IMG/VR virus record: IMGVR_UViG_3300023442_000023
Coordinates: 1-26,208 of that record
Length of the DNA: 26,208 nt
Strand: one strand, 5' to 3'
Origin: a virus
Part shown: piece after piece, positions 8,492 to 15,920 of the stretch
Numbering within the stretch: the first letter of the stretch is position 1
Layout: each line of letters starts with the position of its first letter
The notes under the pieces: model-generated
Database searches by the model: none
Seen by the model: the letters and a program-made list of their open reading frames with translations, nothing else
What the model was told of the DNA's origin: nothing
Made by a program: the position numbers and the translations under genes

Positions 8492-8974
8492 ATGGTTATA
8501 TCAAAACGTATAGAGATTGATTACGGTCATACATTACCTGGGCACTATTCTTTTTGTAACCAGGTACACGGACATAGGGCTGTAGTTATTGCATATTTTA
8601 GTGGTTGTATAAATCAAGATTACGGTTCTTCATCGGAAGGGATGGTTATAGATTTTAGTGTGTGTAAAGATATTATGATGAATGTTATTCATGATAAATT
8701 AGACCACGGTTTTGCTGTATGGAAAAAAGATAATAGAACTGTTAGTATTAGGTATAACGAAATTGCTTATGTTGAAGTTTCAACACTTGAATTTATTAGA
8801 CAAAGAAATTCAAAGGTATTGATTACGGATAGTCCTCCTACTGCGGAATATTTAGCAGAATGGGCACTTGAAGAAATTAGTAAGAAACTCAAATCTATTA
8901 ATAACAATATTAAAGTTGTTAAAGTTAAATGGTATGAAACCCCAAATAATTGTGCTGTAGCTGTATATGAATAA
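8492..8974 (+). CDS. queD: 6-carboxy-5,6,7,8-tetrahydropterin synthase QueD
   Basis: QueD converts 7,8-dihydroneopterin triphosphate to 6-carboxytetrahydropterin (CPH4), the second step to 7-deazaguanines. The 160-residue T-fold protein shows zinc ligands H13 (DYGH), H26 and H28 (VHGH), the catalytic cysteine C22 in C-x3-H-G-H, and the catalytic histidine in LDHGF (D71-H72). PPTAEYLAEW (115-124) is the usual PT-x-E helix, and E149 is the substrate-anchoring glutamate near the C-terminus. About 30 residues of extra sequence lie between the catalytic histidine and PPTAE, so it is longer than typical bacterial QueD. It opens the continuous overlapping gene chain that runs to dpdA. The start lies 2 nt after the upstream stop and overlaps folE by 8 nt at the end. 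Confidence 0.92.
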   Translation: MVISKRIEIDYGHTLPGHYSFCNQVHGHRAVVIAYFSGCINQDYGSSSEGMVIDFSVCKDIMMNVIHDKLDHGFAVWKKDNRTVSIRYNEIAYVEVSTLEFIRQRNSKVLITDSPPTAEYLAEWALEEISKKLKSINNNIKVVKVKWYETPNNCAVAVYE

Positions 8975-9506
8975 ACCGAATATTAAGGATGGTGAAAGGA
9001 TAGTAACTGACTTATTGAATTGGTTAAAAGTGCCAATGGATGAATCGGTAAAAAATACCCCACGTAGAGTTGCAAAAATGTACCTTGAATTATTCAAAGG
9101 GTTGTATTGCACTCCTCCTAAAATTACTATGTTTAAGGCTGAAGATAGTTACGTGTGTATTTCTGACATTTATTTTAATTCAATTTGTGAACATCACTTG
9201 TTACCATTTATGGGTAAGTGTAGTGTTGTGTATCATACAAATAATGGGGTTGTTATTGGGCTTTCAAAAATTCCAAGAATTGTTGATTATTGGAGTTCAA
9301 GACCGCAGCTTCAAGAAAGGTTAACCGAACAAATTGCAGAAGATTTAATGAGGCGGTTGAATCCTTTAGGAGTGTATGTTTTTATGAGTGCCGAACATTC
9401 GTGTGTAAATATAAGGGGTATTAAATCAAGAGGGTGCAGAACAAATACTGCTGTAATTAGGGGTGATATTGATAAGCAGGAAGCAATTAGGTTGTTAAAA
9501 ATTTAG
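8967..9506 (+). CDS. folE: GTP cyclohydrolase I FolE
   Basis: FolE converts GTP to 7,8-dihydroneopterin triphosphate, which feeds QueD. At 179 residues it is a standard-length short FolE. Visible hallmarks are TPRRVAKMYLELFKG (31-45), the zinc and catalytic site SICEHHLLPF (C74, H76, H77), GLSKIPRIVDYWSSRPQLQERLTEQIA (98-124) and the second zinc cysteine in AEHSCV (C146), followed by RGIKSRG. All key residues are present, so it should be active. Phages with DNA 7-deazaguanines often carry folE to raise precursor supply. It overlaps queD by 8 nt and abuts queE (TAGATG), showing translational coupling. Confidence 0.95.
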   Translation: MNKPNIKDGERIVTDLLNWLKVPMDESVKNTPRRVAKMYLELFKGLYCTPPKITMFKAEDSYVCISDIYFNSICEHHLLPFMGKCSVVYHTNNGVVIGLSKIPRIVDYWSSRPQLQERLTEQIAEDLMRRLNPLGVYVFMSAEHSCVNIRGIKSRGCRTNTAVIRGDIDKQEAIRLLKI

Positions 9507-10232
9507 ATGGGTGTTGAAAGATTATATATTGCCGAAATTTTTGAGTCCATCCAGGGTGAAGGGGCTTTAACTGGATTTAGAACTTTGTTTGTTAGATTGG
9601 GTGGTTGTAGAGTTGGATGTATTTGGTGCGATACCAAATATAGCTGGAAGCAGAAAAAGAAAAATTTATATAGTGCTTACAATCTTGCTGCCACAATTAG
9701 TAAGAAAATAGTTGATGGAACTTGGTTATGTATAACTGGCGGTGAGCCTTTAGAGCAATTGAAATCGGTATTGTGGGTATTTGAAAAACTTAAAAAAGCT
9801 GGCTTGACCAGATTTAGTTTAGAAACTTGCGGGGTAATAAAATATGATAGAAAAAAAGTTATTTTGCCTGACCAAAAAGAAATTGTAGATTTATTTAATA
9901 CAGATGTATTTTTTAGTGTAAGCCCAAAATTAAAATCGGCAATAAATAATAGATTTACAATAGAGGGGTTAAGAAAGATTGTTGATTTTTGGGCAAGTAA
10001 TATTTTAATGCCTTATCGGTTACAATTTAAGTTTGTTGTTTCGTGTGTGGATGATTTAAATATTTTATACGAATTATTTAATAATTATAAACTGTTAAAT
10101 ATTATGTATCTACAAATTGAAGCATCAAAGGTTAATGATAAAGATTTTGTATCTAAGTGTTTTATATTTACAAGAATACATCCAGAGTTTAGACTAACTA
10201 TTCAACAACATAAGGTATTGGATTTATTATGA
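9507..10232 (+). CDS. queE: 7-carboxy-7-deazaguanine synthase QueE (radical SAM)
   Basis: QueE is a radical S-adenosylmethionine enzyme that rearranges CPH4 into 7-carboxy-7-deazaguanine (CDG). The protein has 241 residues. SIQGEGALTGFRTLFVRLGG leads to the 4Fe-4S motif C34-x3-C38-x2-C41 followed by DTKYSW, the QueE signature. ITGGEPLEQ (76-84) is the SAM-binding GGEP motif, and SLETCG and SVSPKLKSA are typical QueE later motifs. The start codon directly follows the folE stop with no ribosome binding site of its own, so expression depends on coupling. It overlaps the next gene by 4 nt. All expected catalytic residues are visible. Confidence 0.94.
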   Translation: MGVERLYIAEIFESIQGEGALTGFRTLFVRLGGCRVGCIWCDTKYSWKQKKKNLYSAYNLAATISKKIVDGTWLCITGGEPLEQLKSVLWVFEKLKKAGLTRFSLETCGVIKYDRKKVILPDQKEIVDLFNTDVFFSVSPKLKSAINNRFTIEGLRKIVDFWASNILMPYRLQFKFVVSCVDDLNILYELFNNYKLLNIMYLQIEASKVNDKDFVSKCFIFTRIHPEFRLTIQQHKVLDLL

Positions 10233-11134
10233 GGGAATTAAAAATTAAGTATTTAAAATATGATTGTTGGGCTGTTCATATAGGGGATGCTAAACGGTTA
10301 TTATTATTAAAAAATTGCGATGTAATAAATAGTTGTATCGCATTTTCTATTATAAGATATAATAATTTTAATATTAGTTTAGAATGTGATGTAGTTTTTT
10401 GGAAAAGGTGGATAGACTTTTATTCAGAAATATCGGGTATTAAGAAAAATATTTCATTTAAAAACTCGTCTCAAAAAGCTGTTTTTTCTAATAAGCAAAT
10501 TGGTGAACATTTATTTTATTCAAGTGGTAAGGATAGTTATTTATCATTTGAAATGAGACCGTCATTATTTAGAACATTTTTAATTGATGGCGGTGAAACA
10601 TTCGTTCCAGATATTGGGTTTCATTCTACTTTTATGCACACTAATGTATTTGATATTTTAGTTAATGAACTTGAAACATCGGAAGGTTTTGCAAAGGTTG
10701 GTGCTAAGTATGAATTATTGTTGCCATTGATGAGTAGATATAATACTATCTATTTGGGGTTGGAAAAAGAAAATTGGAGTAACAGTTTTTCTGATATTGG
10801 ATTTAATGTATCTGATTACGCAGAAATATTAAGTGAAGGGCATATTTATTTGGATTCGATAGTTAAAGATTATAATTCTTTAGATATATTAAAAAAATTA
10901 AAGGGGAAACCTTTTTTGAAATGTAATACTTCAGTGGAAGATTTTTGTTATTTATGCTATAAGTGTTTGGTGGCATATTATTTTGGTGCAAATATGGATA
11001 ATGCAAATTTTGATAGAAAGAAGGTGGAAGAAAATATATTTAGAAATAGAGGGTTTTCTTTTTACACAAATAATGTTTTAATAAAAGATAGAATTGGATA
11101 TTTATATATTAAAAGTTTGGAGAAATACAGATGA
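10229..11134 (+). CDS. QueC-like PP-loop ATPase (candidate 7-cyano-7-deazaguanine synthase)
   Basis: QueC uses ATP and ammonia to convert CDG through an amide (ADG) to preQ0. This 301-residue protein has a PP-loop SSGKDS (98-103) in place of the usual SGGxDS. Near the C-terminus it has C232-x7-C240-x2-C243-x2-C246, matching the spacing of the QueC zinc site. Its place directly after queD-folE-queE supports a QueC role. It is divergent: about 90 residues precede the PP-loop, which in QueC lies near the N-terminus. The region between loop and zinc site shows no close match to QueC that I can recognise. An amidotransferase-like enzyme stopping at ADG, or a PP-loop enzyme of the MurL type, are alternatives. 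It has 4-nt overlaps on both sides. Confidence 0.7.
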   Translation: MRELKIKYLKYDCWAVHIGDAKRLLLLKNCDVINSCIAFSIIRYNNFNISLECDVVFWKRWIDFYSEISGIKKNISFKNSSQKAVFSNKQIGEHLFYSSGKDSYLSFEMRPSLFRTFLIDGGETFVPDIGFHSTFMHTNVFDILVNELETSEGFAKVGAKYELLLPLMSRYNTIYLGLEKENWSNSFSDIGFNVSDYAEILSEGHIYLDSIVKDYNSLDILKKLKGKPFLKCNTSVEDFCYLCYKCLVAYYFGANMDNANFDRKKVEENIFRNRGFSFYTNNVLIKDRIGYLYIKSLEKYR

Positions 11135-11472
11135 TAAATTTAATTATAAGAACTCGAATTGAGGGATTTCATTCGTATGAAGAAGCTCCGTTTGAGGTTA
11201 ATTTTTTAAGCAACCCTCATAGACATTTATTTTATGTAACATTAAAAATTGAGGTTTTTACTGCTGAAAGGCAATTTGAATTTTTCCTATTGCAAAGGGA
11301 ATTAGACACTGTTTGTGTTTCCGTATTTAAAGAAAATTGCAGTTGTGAAGAATACGCTATTAACATATTAAATTACTTTAAACAGAAATATGGATACTCA
11401 AGGAGTTATTCTGTTTCTGTATATGAGGATAACGAAAATGGAGCAGAGGTAATTTTTAAAGGAGAGGAATAA
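11131..11472 (+). CDS. QueD/PTPS-like T-fold protein lacking the catalytic cysteine
   Basis: This 113-residue protein has the layout of a small T-fold (6-pyruvoyl-tetrahydropterin synthase) domain. H14 in GFHSY and H30/H32 in PHRHLF match the three zinc histidines. The strands LFYVTLKIEV and REFEFF-type region follow, then ELDTV where QueD has LDH, SCEEYAINIL in place of the PT-x-E helix, and E99 near the C-terminus. The C-x3-H-G-H cysteine and the catalytic histidine are absent, so the normal QueD reaction is unlikely. It may bind a pterin or deazaguanine, act as an inactive partner of another enzyme, or do new chemistry on the base. It lies between the QueC-like gene (4-nt overlap) and the first glycosyltransferase (1-nt overlap). 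Confidence 0.6.
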   Translation: MINLIIRTRIEGFHSYEEAPFEVNFLSNPHRHLFYVTLKIEVFTAERQFEFFLLQRELDTVCVSVFKENCSCEEYAINILNYFKQKYGYSRSYSVSVYEDNENGAEVIFKGEE

Positions 11473-12473
11473 TGCTTTACTATTTACCGATAGAAAAACT
11501 AAACATTAGGTACACAGAACATTTACACAATGATATTGTTTCTTTCTTAGATTCAAAACCAATTGATTATATTACTCTTAGTCCAGAGATAGAACAATAT
11601 GATATTAGGGTGGGGAGTTTTTTGGATGCTGGGTTTACTTCTAGATTTAAAATGTTGCAGTTAGAAATGCTTGCCAATTATTATTCTAAACATTCAATTA
11701 CAAGTGATGATGTAATATTTTTTAGCGATTTGTGGTTTCCTGGAATTGAGATAATTCCTTATATGAATTTCTTTTTTAGAGTTAAACCAAAAATAAGGGG
11801 TATTATACACGCTGGGAGTTTTACTGATACTGATTTTTGCAGAAGAATGGAACGATGGGCTAAAAGTTTTGAAGAGATTGTATTTGATATTACGGATAAA
11901 ATATTTGTTGGAAGTGAATTTATTAAAAATCAAATTATAGAAAGACGGTATGTTGATGCTAATAAAATAATTGTTACTGGGCTGCCTTTGGATTCCACTA
12001 TTAGAAAAGAAGTTGCCAAAGATTCTATTCAAGCTTTACTTAATAGTAAAGAAGACATTGTTGTTTTTAATGGCAGAAATGTTGCAGAGAAACAACCAGA
12101 TTTATTTAATAGCTTAAAATTCCGCTTAGCTAATAAAGGAATTAAATTTGTTAATACACAACTAGAGGGGTTTTCTAAAGAAGAATATTACAATATTCTA
12201 AAAAAAGCGAAGGTAGTTGTATCGTTTGCTTTACAGGAAAATTTTGGCTTTGGAATAAATGAAGCTGTTATGTTTGGGTGCATACCTGTATTACCGAATA
12301 GATTAGTGTATCCAGAATTTTATGGCTCGGATTATTTGTATGGAACTTTTGATGAATGCGTTTATATGGTAGAAGATGCTGTTAAAAATTATATTAAATA
12401 TTTACCTGTATTAACATCGGTGAATAAATTTTCAAACACTATAATAGATAGGTGGTTTAATGATTTATATTAA
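11472..12473 (+). CDS. GT-B glycosyltransferase (GT4-like), copy 1
   Basis: This 333-residue protein has a two-lobe GT-B pattern. The C-terminal lobe begins IVVFNGRNVAEKQPDLF (about 196-212), with R202 and K207 at the positions used by GT4 enzymes to hold the donor phosphates. It then has the E-x7-E motif E256-NFGFGIN-E264, followed by AVMFGCIPVLPNRLVYPEFY. The N-terminal lobe shows an IIHAGSFTDTDF loop expected near the acceptor. It should transfer a sugar from a nucleotide donor, but the sequence alone does not name sugar or acceptor. Location inside the deazaguanine operon, sharing one nucleotide with the T-fold gene, makes modified DNA base the most attractive acceptor. Glycosylation of a phage structural protein or host polysaccharide is the main alternative. 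Confidence 0.8.
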   Translation: MLYYLPIEKLNIRYTEHLHNDIVSFLDSKPIDYITLSPEIEQYDIRVGSFLDAGFTSRFKMLQLEMLANYYSKHSITSDDVIFFSDLWFPGIEIIPYMNFFFRVKPKIRGIIHAGSFTDTDFCRRMERWAKSFEEIVFDITDKIFVGSEFIKNQIIERRYVDANKIIVTGLPLDSTIRKEVAKDSIQALLNSKEDIVVFNGRNVAEKQPDLFNSLKFRLANKGIKFVNTQLEGFSKEEYYNILKKAKVVVSFALQENFGFGINEAVMFGCIPVLPNRLVYPEFYGSDYLYGTFDECVYMVEDAVKNYIKYLPVLTSVNKFSNTIIDRWFNDLY

Positions 12474-13371
12474 TAGAATGTATGAAACTTTGAGGAGTCA
12501 TTCGGTACTAACGAATAGATATGTTGAAGAAGGGGTAAAAAATATGGATGATGTTATTTTGTACCCAGATAAAGTGGTAGATGATTCATTAGCTTTTTTA
12601 GATAAAAAAGAAATAGAATGCAGGTTGGCTGAATACGGAATTAAAAGTATGAAATATTTAATTAATTCCGATATAAAAGAAAGTGATTCATTGATATTTT
12701 TAGATTCGAGGCAATTGGTTTATGAACAATACCACGTATCTAATATAGGTACTGTTCCTAGGGTATTTATTAGGGCTGTAAATTTTCAATATATATCACA
12801 TAAAAAATCCACTTTTTATCAGGATATTGATAATACTTTTTTACCTATTGTTCATACAAAGTTTACTTCAGATTTTTATAAATACAATAGATATATAGCT
12901 GTGGGTGGATTTGCGGATAAATTTCAACCGAAAGATAACAAAGAAGATTTTGCTATGTGGGCTGGTAGAAAAGGTAAAGGGTATGATAAGGCTAAAATGA
13001 TTTCTAATTATATTAACTTAAAAATGTACCCTGTAGAAAGTTCTAATTTGACTGCGGATGAATTATTTTCTAAATTTGACAAAGCTAAGGTTATAATATC
13101 GGTCGCCGATAGTGAGGAGACTTTTGGAAACGTAATTATGCAGGGTATTAGTAGGGGTTGTATTCCTTTGTTGCCTAATAAATTGTGTTACCCATATATG
13201 TACCCAGAAGAATTTTTATATAACTCAATGGATGAGTGTATAAATAAAGCTAATTTATATATTAATAATTATGATTTATATTGGAAAAAATTTGGCGTTA
13301 TATTGGAACAAATAGTAGATTATTATCAACCAGAAAGAACAATGAATAGGATGCTGTTTTTAATAAGATGA
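12460..13371 (+). CDS. GT-B glycosyltransferase-like protein, copy 2 (divergent paralogue)
   Basis: This 303-residue protein is clearly related to the preceding glycosyltransferase in its C-terminal lobe. FAMWAGRKGKGYDKA (164-178) occupies the donor-phosphate position, and SEETFGNVIMQGISRGCIPLLPNKLCYPYMYPEEFLY (218 on) parallels the other copy's final motif through GCIP and LPN. The E-x7-E motif is altered to E220-x7-Q228, so donor binding may differ or be lost. The N-terminal lobe is shorter and little like the first copy. It overlaps copy 1 by 14 nt and the methyltransferase by 4 nt. The pair could add two sugars in turn, form a heterodimer, or use different donors. Assignment to GT-B fold is sound; activity is uncertain. 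Confidence 0.7.
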   Translation: MIYINRMYETLRSHSVLTNRYVEEGVKNMDDVILYPDKVVDDSLAFLDKKEIECRLAEYGIKSMKYLINSDIKESDSLIFLDSRQLVYEQYHVSNIGTVPRVFIRAVNFQYISHKKSTFYQDIDNTFLPIVHTKFTSDFYKYNRYIAVGGFADKFQPKDNKEDFAMWAGRKGKGYDKAKMISNYINLKMYPVESSNLTADELFSKFDKAKVIISVADSEETFGNVIMQGISRGCIPLLPNKLCYPYMYPEEFLYNSMDECINKANLYINNYDLYWKKFGVILEQIVDYYQPERTMNRMLFLIR

Positions 13372-13937
13372 AGTTAAATGAAACAGAAAACGGACTTCTA
13401 ATGCCATTAAATGTTGTTAGACCAGAAAGATGGCTGAACAATGGGTCGTTCCTTGAGGGCGAAGATGACTTATACCCGTTGTTAACTGCTATTGTCCGTA
13501 TGTTGAAACCTGTGTTTATTGTTGAAACTGGAACTTGTAGGGGATTAAGCACATTAGCATTTGCAGAAGGATTGGAATGTAATAAAGAAGGGAAGATTGT
13601 TACACTTGAAATTAGCAAAGAATTTTATAGTGTTGCCGAAAAGAATTTTTCAAAGAGTAAATTTGAAAAAAGAATTGTATTAAAAACAATGTCAAGTTTT
13701 AAATATTTGCCAGAGCAAAATATTGATTTATTATTTTTAGATGCTTGGGATAGGGAAGAAGAGTTTTTCCATTTTTTACCTTTTTTATCAGTTAATGGGG
13801 TTGTGTTATTACACGATGCGTATGTACCAGAATTTAAAAAATTCATTGAAAATATTAATGGAACTATTTTACCTACACCAAGAGGGTTAGGATTATGGGT
13901 TTGTTCTCCTGAAAAAAAATTGGATTTGTTAAAATGA
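13368..13937 (+). CDS. class I SAM-dependent methyltransferase
   Basis: This 189-residue protein has a Rossmann methyltransferase core. Motif I is FIVETGTCRGLSTLAFAEGL (50-69), the acidic end of strand 2 is VTLEISKEF (E81, ribose binding), strand 4 is DLLFLDAWDREEEFFHFLPFL (120-140, D125), and strand 5 is GVVLLHDAY (144-152). The LLHDAY end and the ETGTxxG loop resemble small-molecule and sugar O-methyltransferases of the Methyltransf_24 type. The NPPY/DPPY motif of DNA adenine or cytosine-N4 methyltransferases and the PC motif of cytosine-C5 enzymes are absent. Substrate unknown; position between two glycosyltransferases and dpdA suggests methylation of the base side chain or its sugar. It has 4-nt overlaps on both sides. 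Confidence 0.82.
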   Translation: MKLNETENGLLMPLNVVRPERWLNNGSFLEGEDDLYPLLTAIVRMLKPVFIVETGTCRGLSTLAFAEGLECNKEGKIVTLEISKEFYSVAEKNFSKSKFEKRIVLKTMSSFKYLPEQNIDLLFLDAWDREEEFFHFLPFLSVNGVVLLHDAYVPEFKKFIENINGTILPTPRGLGLWVCSPEKKLDLLK

Positions 13938-14845
13938 GAATGTTTTTTGCAGGTGCAGAAAATAAAAGCCACATGCGAGCTTTATATGATTGCGGTGTAG
14001 AAAAAGTACTGATGTCATACTTTTATATAAGAAGAAGGAGTATTGACATAGATGAAATACTTGATAAATTTCCGCAGGTGGTTGTGGATTCTGGAGCTTT
14101 TACAATGATGGGGCACGGTGAAAATGTTAAGAAAGTCACTCTACAACAACACGAAGATTATTTATATGATTATCTAAAATTTTTAGTTAAATATAGTGGA
14201 CGATTTATTTGGGCTGCAAATTATGATGTTGATTTGGTTATTGGGCATAATAAAGTTGTTGAATGGAATAAGCTGTTTGAACAGCTTGAAGAAGAATATG
14301 GGCAAACAGTTTGTTATGTAGCCCACGATTATGCAAATAAATTTGATGTTACTAAGGAATATTTAGATAGATATTCTTATATTGGAGCATCAAGTATTTC
14401 CGACGCTCAACATATTAACCATACAGAAAGGTTTTATATTGAAGCAACGAAAAGAAAAGTTAGAACTCACGGATTTGGGTTCACTGCTTTTGTAACTGAA
14501 CAAAGGTTTCCTTATTATACTTGTGATTCAACCACTTATTTAGGTGGTGAAAAATATGGAACTACATACGTTTATAATGGTGCTTATTTTGAAACTTGGG
14601 ATTATAAACATAAACATTATAGAAAATGGTTAAAAAGACAGTGTGATGAATGGGGCTTAGATTTTAATAAAATATTAAAAGATGACTCTCACGAAATAAC
14701 CAGGTTTAATATTAAGAGTTGGATATTAAATGAGGAGTTGTTTGATAGAAGAACAAAGAATAGACAATGGTGGATGAAGTATGACGAAGATTTCTTCAGA
14801 AAAATCGAAAGAGAAAAAATCCTTGCAAGAAAAAATCAAAGATAG
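13934..14845 (+). CDS. dpdA: DpdA-type DNA 7-deazaguanine transglycosylase (TGT family)
   Basis: DpdA proteins exchange guanine in DNA for a 7-deazaguanine base, by analogy with tRNA-guanine transglycosylase. This 303-residue protein shows the TGT-barrel pattern of phage DpdA: VVVDSGAFT (50-57, D52 matching the first TGT aspartate), WAANYDVDLV (93-102), CYVAHDY (127-133), YIGASSIS (149-156), THGFGFTAF (178-186) and YYTCDSTTYLGGEKYGTTYVY (194-214). D198 sits where TGT has its nucleophile. The TGT C-terminal zinc motif is absent, and a charged C-terminal tail (RRTKNRQWW, FFRKIEREK) may contact DNA. It is the last step of the queD-folE-queE-queC-like pathway and overlaps the methyltransferase by 4 nt. 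Which base it inserts, and at which sequence, cannot be read from here. Confidence 0.88.
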   Translation: MRMFFAGAENKSHMRALYDCGVEKVLMSYFYIRRRSIDIDEILDKFPQVVVDSGAFTMMGHGENVKKVTLQQHEDYLYDYLKFLVKYSGRFIWAANYDVDLVIGHNKVVEWNKLFEQLEEEYGQTVCYVAHDYANKFDVTKEYLDRYSYIGASSISDAQHINHTERFYIEATKRKVRTHGFGFTAFVTEQRFPYYTCDSTTYLGGEKYGTTYVYNGAYFETWDYKHKHYRKWLKRQCDEWGLDFNKILKDDSHEITRFNIKSWILNEELFDRRTKNRQWWMKYDEDFFRKIEREKILARKNQR

Positions 14846-15920
14846 GGATTTGTTAAAAGAATCCCATCTTATGAATGCAGAGGAAAAAGACATTGAACAT
14901 AAAAGACGTAAGAAGCTTAGAAATGAGATTACTCATAAGTTACGTTTTGATGTTTTAGAAAGAGATGGATTTAAGTGTGGTTATTGTGGTGCATCACCTA
15001 AAGATGACCCTTCGGTTGAATTAACAGTAGACCATATAAAACCGATTGATAAGGGTGGTGATAATGAAATGTCCAATCTTATTACTGCTTGTTATAGTTG
15101 TAACGAGGGTAAAAAAAGCCGCTTGCTAAAAGAAAAGATTGGTGTTGGTATTGATTATTATAGTGTTCTGGATAGGATATTAAAGGTTAATACTGATGAA
15201 GAAATAAAAGAGTTTTTATTATCGGAAGATAATAAAGACATTGTTAAGTGGATGTATGATAGATATAGGGAATTAAATTGGACTGCTTGTTTAGAAAATT
15301 GTAAAGACTGCTTGAGTAATGGGTTAAATTTTTATACCAGGTGCTGGTATAACATATCAAATAAAGTTCGCAAGGAAACAAAAACTTTACAATTGTATTC
15401 AAAGGATGAATTAAAAACAAAAGAGGAAACACAACCATTACTTACTATTGATACTGAAAAAGGATTGAATCCTATAGTTTCGGATTCTGCCAAATTAAAA
15501 TGCGATAGCTGTTATTTAGTTGGTAGGTGTCCAGCATATAAAGTTGGTGCGTTGTGTGAATTTGATTTTTCAATCGGCACTGATTTTTCTGATATTAAAA
15601 ATGCTTTAAGAATAATTGTTAATATTCAAAAAGAAAGAGTTGTTAGAAGTGTTTTATTTGAAAAGATAGATGGTGGTGCCGTAGATAAAAATGTATCAAG
15701 TGAAATTATGATGTTGTCTAAGTTATTAGACCAAATTTCAGATTCAAATATGCCGTCAGCATCTTTTACATTTACTGCAAAGCAACAGGGTAATAGTGGA
15801 AGTGATGTTTTAAGTAATTTGTTTTCAAAATTTCTTGGTGGTAAGTCTAAAGACACCGAAGAAGTTTCCACTGAGGAAGTTCCCGCCGAAAAAGCCTCTG
15901 ATGAGGTCTCACCTAAGTAG
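14781..15920 (+). CDS. HNH-domain protein with two extra Cys clusters and disordered tail
   Basis: This 379-residue protein begins 65 nt inside dpdA, with GGTGGA at 14768-14773 upstream of the ATG. Residues 62-113 are an HNH nuclease domain of the C4 type: C66-x2-C69, VDHIKPID (D84-H85), N99, C104-x2-C107-N and GKKSR. A second cluster, CLENCKDC near residues 168-176, and a third, C-x2-C-x5-C-P-x7-C in LKCDSCYLVGRCPAYKVGALC, suggest further zinc sites. The following DIKNALRIIVNIQKERVVRS helix and SSEIMMLSKLLDQI helix recall oligomeric DNA-binding phage proteins. The last 60 residues are Ser/Glu/Lys-rich and disordered. It may be a packaging-associated nuclease, a homing-type endonuclease or a defence-related nuclease; I cannot choose. 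Confidence 0.75.
   Translation: MTKISSEKSKEKKSLQEKIKDRDLLKESHLMNAEEKDIEHKRRKKLRNEITHKLRFDVLERDGFKCGYCGASPKDDPSVELTVDHIKPIDKGGDNEMSNLITACYSCNEGKKSRLLKEKIGVGIDYYSVLDRILKVNTDEEIKEFLLSEDNKDIVKWMYDRYRELNWTACLENCKDCLSNGLNFYTRCWYNISNKVRKETKTLQLYSKDELKTKEETQPLLTIDTEKGLNPIVSDSAKLKCDSCYLVGRCPAYKVGALCEFDFSIGTDFSDIKNALRIIVNIQKERVVRSVLFEKIDGGAVDKNVSSEIMMLSKLLDQISDSNMPSASFTFTAKQQGNSGSDVLSNLFSKFLGGKSKDTEEVSTEEVPAEKASDEVSPK

Follow-up and report, generated by a model that had tools for sequence, protein, structure and literature searches.

In this study, we analyzed a virus record from IMG/VR (IMGVR_UViG_3300023442_000023; 26,208 bases, G+C 30.8%), referred to below in its full length as the window, with a focus on an operon of nine consecutive open reading frames (ORFs) at positions 8492-14845, all on the + strand. 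Based on its gene content, this operon is predicted to be a variant of the phage 7-deazaguanine DNA modification systems, with a glycosylated base as its product: with a probability of roughly 0.72, it would make a 7-deazaguanine, insert it into phage DNA and glycosylate the base. Two lines of evidence carry this prediction. A glycosyltransferase (GT) of the GT1 type, named after the first of two such genes in the operon, occurs together with these base-making genes in numerous phages that are not related to one another, and sequence comparisons show GT1 to be kin, by shared ancestry, of the tRNA-queuosine mannosyltransferase (QTMAN) family.

The initial annotation of this DNA had described an unbroken nine-gene chain with overlaps of 1-14 nucleotides (nt) or direct abutment. 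This was borne out when the junctions of the + strand ORFs were recounted: queD and folE overlap by 8 nt, folE and queE abut, and the remaining overlaps are 4 (queE/PP-loop), 4 (PP-loop/T-fold), 1 (T-fold/GT1), 14 (GT1/GT2), 4 (GT2/methyltransferase, MT) and 4 nt (MT/dpdA). Its labels for queD, folE, queE, dpdA and the methyltransferase, all clear families, also stand, whereas the label "QueC-like" is unproven, the gene in question showing two short motifs without a profile match. In addition to the nine genes, a tenth ORF overlapping dpdA was found. The features are listed below with the evidence for each.

8492..8974, + strand: queD, 6-carboxytetrahydropterin synthase (PF01242, 2.5e-23; phrog_2389, 1.9e-28; CNQVHGH motif)
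8967..9506, + strand: folE, GTP cyclohydrolase I (PF01227, 2e-52)
9507..10232, + strand: queE, radical-SAM (S-adenosylmethionine) 7-carboxy-7-deazaguanine synthase (phrog_2076, 4.7e-32; CxxxCxxC at residue 34)
10229..11134, + strand: PP-loop protein, possibly QueC-like, which is unproven (SSGKDS and C-x7-CxxCxxC)
11131..11472, + strand: T-fold protein, QueD-like, 113 amino acids (aa), a conserved companion of the GT (phrog_17812, 4.7e-16; 56 of 60 GT loci)
11472..12473, + strand: GT1, retaining GT-B (GT4-type) glycosyltransferase of a sister family of QTMAN (60 viral loci, structural model, QTMAN affinity)
12460..13371, + strand: GT2, a paralogue that has diverged from GT1 (residues 154-273 aligned with the GT1 family by hhalign, E 1.4e-15)
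13368..13937, + strand: MT, class I SAM methyltransferase, O-methyltransferase-like (PF13578, 4.8e-12; PF01596, 1.1e-7; PF04989, 0.0012)
13934..14845, + strand: dpdA, DNA guanine transglycosylase (phrog_887, 4.5e-32; residues common with phage 9g DpdA)
14781..15920, + strand: HNH plus Cys-rich ORF overlapping dpdA (PF01844, 6e-13; phrog_887 positions 288-486)

Association of the GT1 family with 7-deazaguanine genes

A scan with four related GT1 proteins yielded 60 viral loci of this family in IMG/VR, 57 of which hold a total of 58 long GT ORFs. As these fall into only 24 groups at 85% identity, the 60 loci do not represent 60 independent cases. Profile searches recognised the T-fold gene in 56 of the 60 loci, folE in 48 and queE in 45; among the 32 loci in which the contig extends 6 kb or more to either side of the GT, the counts were 32, 31 and 30, respectively. 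At least one of folE, queE, queD and the T-fold gene was present in 57 of the 60 loci. The initial annotation had named, as the finding that would speak against it, glycosyltransferase homologues consistently occurring in phages without any deazaguanine genes; for GT1, such a pattern was thus not observed. The three loci with none of the four genes are L062, where the GT lies at a contig end, L073, which is 6.9 kb long and has dpdA, and L075.

The GT1 family was also detected by tblastn in 20 isolate phage records, and one genome of each kind was examined (Paride, ACP17, X1, BUCT-ZZ01, Phosso and PhiXhv-12). The record of BUCT-ZZ01 gives Synechococcus elongatus PCC 7942, a laboratory strain, as host; a single cluster of this phage contains folE, queD, queE, the T-fold gene, the GT and a gene for a DpdA2-type protein. 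FolE is encoded in all six genomes, and 392 of 50,697 phage records match the window FolE; this contrast is rough, since the base rate was obtained by tblastn over phages of all sizes and the isolate figure by a Pfam profile in large phages. FolE is located within a few kb of the GT in ACP17, X1, BUCT-ZZ01 and Phosso, and five of the six isolates have the T-fold gene next to the GT or in its vicinity. A like module was present in all four metagenome-assembled genome contigs analyzed (L078-L081; three titled as Bacteroidota genera or Bacteroidetes, one as "bacterium").

Fold of GT1 and its kinship with QTMAN

The only Pfam match of GT1 (PF00534, 0.0015) is below the curated cut-off, and its assignment was backed later by homologues, a model and a tree. 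The AlphaFold model, built from 24 aligned sequences (predicted local distance difference test, pLDDT, 88.9), has a retaining GT4-type GT-B fold, with MshA/BshA at Z about 24 in a PDB fold comparison. The EX7E motif is present, E256 and E264 being invariant in the 24 rows, which places GT1 among the retaining GT4 enzymes of the GT-B class. A distant fold match, at rank 35, is a protein of cyanophage S-TIM5 named DNA alpha-glycosyltransferase. The best 50 PDB fold matches listed for GT1 contain no QTMAN structure and no T4 glucosyltransferase, an absence that proves nothing.

In tRNA, QTMAN adds mannose to the allylic hydroxyl of queuosine (PMC12518689). A bacterial genome scan gave, besides four phage-like loci, ten QTMAN-like loci (some of them near-copies or fragments) and one ordinary GT4. 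The QTMAN N-domain (PF12038) was detected in nine of ten bacterial genomes, in eight of them within the same ORF as matched or its listed equivalent; the bacterial QTMAN-type proteins compared here are putative and assigned by sequence. The phage GT profile ranks QTMAN first in all six QTMAN genomes (1e-17 to 1e-21), the next GT4 scoring 7.6e-4 or worse, and three of these genomes hold 71 PF00534 matches, QTMAN included. Because the first scan used patterns favouring QTMAN, surveys of 148 and 99 genomes from two phyla were added, their centre genomes still being chosen from that scan. The top 11 and top 8 cellular matches were fetched, and all 19 were QTMAN by the N-domain profile; this classification refers to top matches only (55 of the 148 and 25 of the 99 genomes had any match), and one of the 19 (L147) is the already known QTMAN of the centre genome itself.

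In the reverse search, with a QTMAN profile, all phage GT rows but one were recovered (35 of 36, 5.5e-22 to 6.3e-9), the exception being the second GT of L021, and none of 24 ordinary GT4 proteins scores better than 2.2e-5. A 68-row tree separates 24 GT4 proteins from the phage and QTMAN sequences with support of 100/99, and the phage sequences from QTMAN with 99/97; the bootstrap is not fully settled, and GT2 is on a long branch, its place unsure. The GT4 set consists of 24 of the 30 GT4-type loci fetched from three genomes, L121 being QTMAN itself and L111, L116, L120, L123 and L130 (227, 493, 494, 645 and 1447 aa) having been left out by ORF length. Downstream of a QENFG motif, a run like PxLPNRLxYPE is common to the phage GTs and QTMAN and was not seen in the six displayed GT4 rows. 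By these comparisons, the GT4 domain of GT1 is closer to QTMAN than to other GT4 proteins. An N-domain hidden Markov model matches none of the 36 phage GT rows, and GT1 was consequently rejected as a QTMAN family member and assigned to a sister family.

Synthesis of the modified base

FolE, QueD and QueE, the set expected of a phage 7-deazaguanine DNA modification system, are all encoded in the operon (Pfam and PHROG profiles). The PP-loop protein has no Pfam or PHROG match at E 0.1, and a PF06508 (QueC) match is absent from the whole window, including this gene. Its Cys spacing is the same as in 9g Gat-QueC, and its two motifs loosely match the QueC signature, SGGxDS and C(x)8CxxCxxC, given in PMC13329287. 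A phmmer search against PDB returned a single chance-level match, hmmsearch and hhalign against three QueC sequences gave no signal, and an AlphaFold model made without an alignment (pLDDT 31) was unusable. No relatives were found in phages by tblastn, and none were confirmed in viral contigs by single-protein patterns. Judging from the motifs, the PP-loop gene may add a QueC-like step in the window phage.

Of 30 records with a GT or T-fold gene, 28 likewise gave no QueC (PF06508) match, many of these being fragments and five being isolate genomes (Paride, ACP17, BUCT-ZZ01, Phosso and phiST), with controls positive in 12 of 14. This suggests that the acceptor is probably a compound other than preQ0. 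The exceptions are X1, whose match is below the cut-off, and PhiXhv-12, with one match. In the latter, a protein annotated as glutamine-fructose-6-phosphate aminotransferase (L012:5618-7141) contains a QueC domain (2.7e-51) and is probably a Gat-QueC; its gene adjoins a deacetylase gene and a distant GT1 relative.

In the T-fold protein, H14, H30, H32, S71-C72-E73 and E99 are invariant in nine aligned proteins. Compared with QueD/PTPS, the Zn triad H14/H30/H32 and a Glu are kept, the catalytic Cys before HGH is absent, and there is a new SCE motif. As QueD/PTPS proper has both the Zn His triad and the catalytic Cys, the protein was rejected as a member of that family. The best PDB match of a T-fold profile without QueD rows was 0.088 (2dj6); a score of 8.6e-7 was set aside because its alignment contained QueD rows. 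The T-fold gene also occurs where no GT1 relative was found, with folE nearby in phiST, Rhizobium phage RHph_I1_18 and Vibrio phages Bakedbeans and D479, and with dpdA adjoining in Roos, which makes a role in making the base more likely than one in the sugar link. DpdL, a predicted decarboxylase of 7-carboxy-7-deazaguanine (CDG) in deazaguanine phages, could be identical with the T-fold protein.

Two further observations concern base-making genes. One phage contig (L006) carries two queE-like genes (L006:5183 and L006:12883). A phosphoribosyltransferase-like gene is present in 40 of the 60 GT loci (L002-L006 and L021-L075, some by weak scores), a possible sign that the base follows a nucleotide-level route in certain phages.

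Insertion into DNA

The DSG motif, a second Asp, two His and a C-terminal Asp of the window DpdA are invariant in 12 aligned rows (the window, 9g and ten other phage proteins), and together with the phrog_887 match they identify it as a DpdA-type transglycosylase. Other GT relatives carry phrog_10773, which matches YP_008125322 of nt-1, the published DpdA2 (PMC6884629). A transglycosylase was recognised in 29 of the 60 GT loci, nine of these by weak scores only. Single-linkage clustering would have put the number of loci with a transglycosylase at 49, a figure that was discarded because profile support was missing for most unlabelled members of the cluster. In viral contigs, no dpdA relatives were confirmed by single-protein patterns.

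The tenth ORF and dpdA share 65 nt, read in different frames. DpdA and the C-terminal part of this ORF are covered by a single profile, PHROG 887, and in a Bacteroides phage and a faecal scaffold the ORF following dpdA matches the same C-terminal part. In a faecal phage scaffold (L014:7905-10145), the dpdA ORF is 747 aa long and has about 420 extra residues near query residue 200, splitting the DpdA match; this insertion is possibly an intein.

GT2, the methyltransferase and sugar-donor genes

GT2 gave only weak, chance-level matches in Pfam and PHROGs and none in NCBIfam, and its homology to the GT1 family was detected by hhalign over the residues listed above. Its sequence deviates from the EX7E motif of retaining GT4 enzymes of the GT-B class. 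MT resembles O-methyltransferases and, faintly, the rhamnosyl O-methyltransferase/CmcI family (the PF04989 match, below cut-off). Its one phage relative lies on a 5.3-kb scaffold without any other profiled gene, and no relatives of GT2 or MT were confirmed in viral contigs by single-protein patterns. The initial annotation had proposed that both glycosyltransferases and the methyltransferase act on a deazaguanine; sugar transfer by GT1 has gained from locus linkage and QTMAN kinship, whereas roles of GT2 and MT in base modification are suggested by position only. In L021, a second glycosyltransferase-like gene (L021:15847) follows the GT at a distance of about 9.5 kb, and in BUCT-ZZ01 such a second gene is part of the cluster (L010:5001-6344; weak PF13692, 3.4e-5).

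With regard to sugar donors, an epimerase family is present in 22 of 69 loci, directly behind the GT (median start 986 nt after the GT start), and a cupin family upstream of the GT in 13 of the 60 loci. The one member tested from each family matched PF01370 (3e-51) and PF01050 (mannose-6-phosphate isomerase type, 5.1e-28), respectively. Overall, at least a third of the relatives have sugar-nucleotide genes next to the GT. Elsewhere in the window, the first half of the protein encoded at 1653-2729 contains an extended Asp/Glu-rich stretch, downstream of which it matches PHROG 17226.

Proposed pathway and alternative explanations

In the proposed pathway, FolE, QueD and QueE would convert GTP to CDG, as these families do in the established pathway. 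The T-fold protein may then tailor the 7-substituent of the base, as may the PP-loop protein in the window phage only. DpdA, by homology to 9g DpdA, would swap guanine in DNA for the modified base. GT1 would transfer a sugar from a nucleotide sugar to the base, probably after insertion, by analogy with QTMAN. From their positions, GT2 might extend the sugar or assist and MT might O-methylate the sugar or modify the base. As in known deazaguanine phages, the product would be expected to shield the DNA from restriction enzymes.

Several observations weigh against this pathway. By profile search, no transglycosylase was recognised in 31 of the 60 GT loci. No FolE or PTPS was found in the 33-kb record of L075, whose GT is 0.9 kb from the contig end, or in the 58-kb record of L068, which has a T-fold gene and a weak dpdA match. 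FolE is about 56 kb from the GT in Paride and farther in PhiXhv-12, and the latter has no T-fold gene within 8 kb of the GT (profile search). GT2 is short of catalytic-type residues: the HAG loop and EKxP are absent, and Gln aligns with the second Glu of EX7E. GT2, MT and the PP-loop protein have almost no relatives. No sugar-nucleotide gene was recognised in the window, and the phage would presumably draw on a host nucleotide sugar. The QTMAN N-domain (PF12038) was found in none of ten phage records, including the window, by the same search that was positive in nine of ten bacterial genomes, the controls being silent in the phage records; the acceptor site is thus not conserved. Finally, the GT4 fold also includes pterin glucosyltransferases, and FolE- and PTPS-type enzymes make pterins too.

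The last two points would suit a cluster that makes a glycosylated pterin from FolE, QueD/T-fold and a GT like tetrahydrobiopterin glucosyltransferase, and BGluT structures (5zes and 9v0l, Z about 21) are among the fold matches of GT1. However, QueE, present in the window and in 30 of the 32 well-covered loci, and the transglycosylase, present in the window and in 29 of the 60 loci, are both foreign to pterin synthesis, and the sequence affinity of GT1 is with QTMAN; we regard this as the least probable of the explanations considered. Since QTMAN is a tRNA-queuosine enzyme, its sister GT1 might likewise glycosylate deazaguanine-modified tRNA rather than DNA. This is unlikely in view of the transglycosylases recognised in the operons, which are of the DpdA (phrog_887) or DpdA2 types: 9g DpdA has been shown to insert deazaguanine into DNA, and the DNA of nt-1, a phage with DpdA2, is modified (PMC6884629). 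The QTMAN N-domain is also missing from the phage GTs, and recombinase, ligase and exonuclease genes lie just upstream of the operon in the window.

It is very unlikely that the sugar genes are there to glycosylate the cell surface or the virion and happen to adjoin the base genes, as proposed for sugar clusters of jumbo cyanophages, because one GT family tracks folE, queE and the T-fold gene across unrelated phages, and GT1, which is part of the operon, has a family of deazaguanine glycosyltransferases as its closest relatives. Clusters of cupin isomerases, nucleotidyltransferases and GTs are nevertheless interpreted in this way in PMC7824862, and GT2 and MT are without linkage evidence. More serious, though still doubtful, is the idea that GT1 glycosylates DNA while GT2 and MT have other functions or have decayed. 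The motifs missing from GT2 and the near absence of MT relatives would agree with it, whereas both genes have intact reading frames that overlap those of the adjoining operon genes, and the BUCT-ZZ01 cluster also has its second GT-like gene.

Comparison with known systems and implications

The alpha- and beta-glucosyltransferases of T4 are GT-B enzymes that glycosylate 5-hydroxymethylcytosine in phage DNA. They resemble the proposed GT1 function in sugaring a phage DNA base with a GT-B enzyme and differ in having 5-hydroxymethylcytosine as target. The 9g/nt-1 type of 7-deazaguanine modification comprises FolE, QueD, QueE, QueC or Gat-QueC, and DpdA/DpdA2, as set out in PMC6884629, whose main text contains no word beginning with "glycosyl". 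FolE, QueD, QueE and a DNA transglycosylase are common to both, with DpdA positions in common with 9g and DpdA2 in GT relatives. The systems differ in the lack of PF06508 QueC from 28 of the 30 GT/T-fold records and in the added T-fold protein and glycosyltransferase. QTMAN (PF12038) is the nearest cellular relative in the GT4 domain and acts on a 7-deazaguanine nucleoside (PMC12518689), whereas the phage GTs have no PF12038 N-domain and their substrate would be DNA. The deazaguanine system of PA5oct is mentioned in PMC7824862, without a GT link in the accessible part of that account. In phiST, a T-fold homologue lies beside folE, queD and queE, again without PF06508, whereas no GT1-family match was found. 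The deazaguanine cluster of this Cellulophaga phage was reportedly described by Cui et al. in 2023 in Nucleic Acids Research (NAR).

No published description of a glycosylated 7-deazaguanine in phage DNA was found in the open-licence literature, which is no proof of its absence from print. To our knowledge, the other known phage deazaguanines carry small substituents. The same applies to those described in PMC6884629. We give even odds to a broader proposal, namely that these phage clusters represent a widespread, unnamed class of DNA hypermodification in which a QueC-independent, T-fold-tailored 7-deazaguanine would be glycosylated by a family sharing an ancestor with QTMAN. In this reading, the sugar might even be attached to carbon 7, as a C-glycoside, should the T-fold protein act as a CDG decarboxylase, and in the window phage the sugar would be extended and/or methylated. 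The prediction is directly testable because GT1-family members occur in isolated phages, such as BUCT-ZZ01. If the prediction holds, glycosylated deazaguanine would add a chemically new class to the known DNA bases. It would combine T4-type glycosylation with deazaguanine substitution, which are separate strategies against restriction, and would tie phage DNA modification by descent to the animal tRNA queuosine glycosyltransferase.

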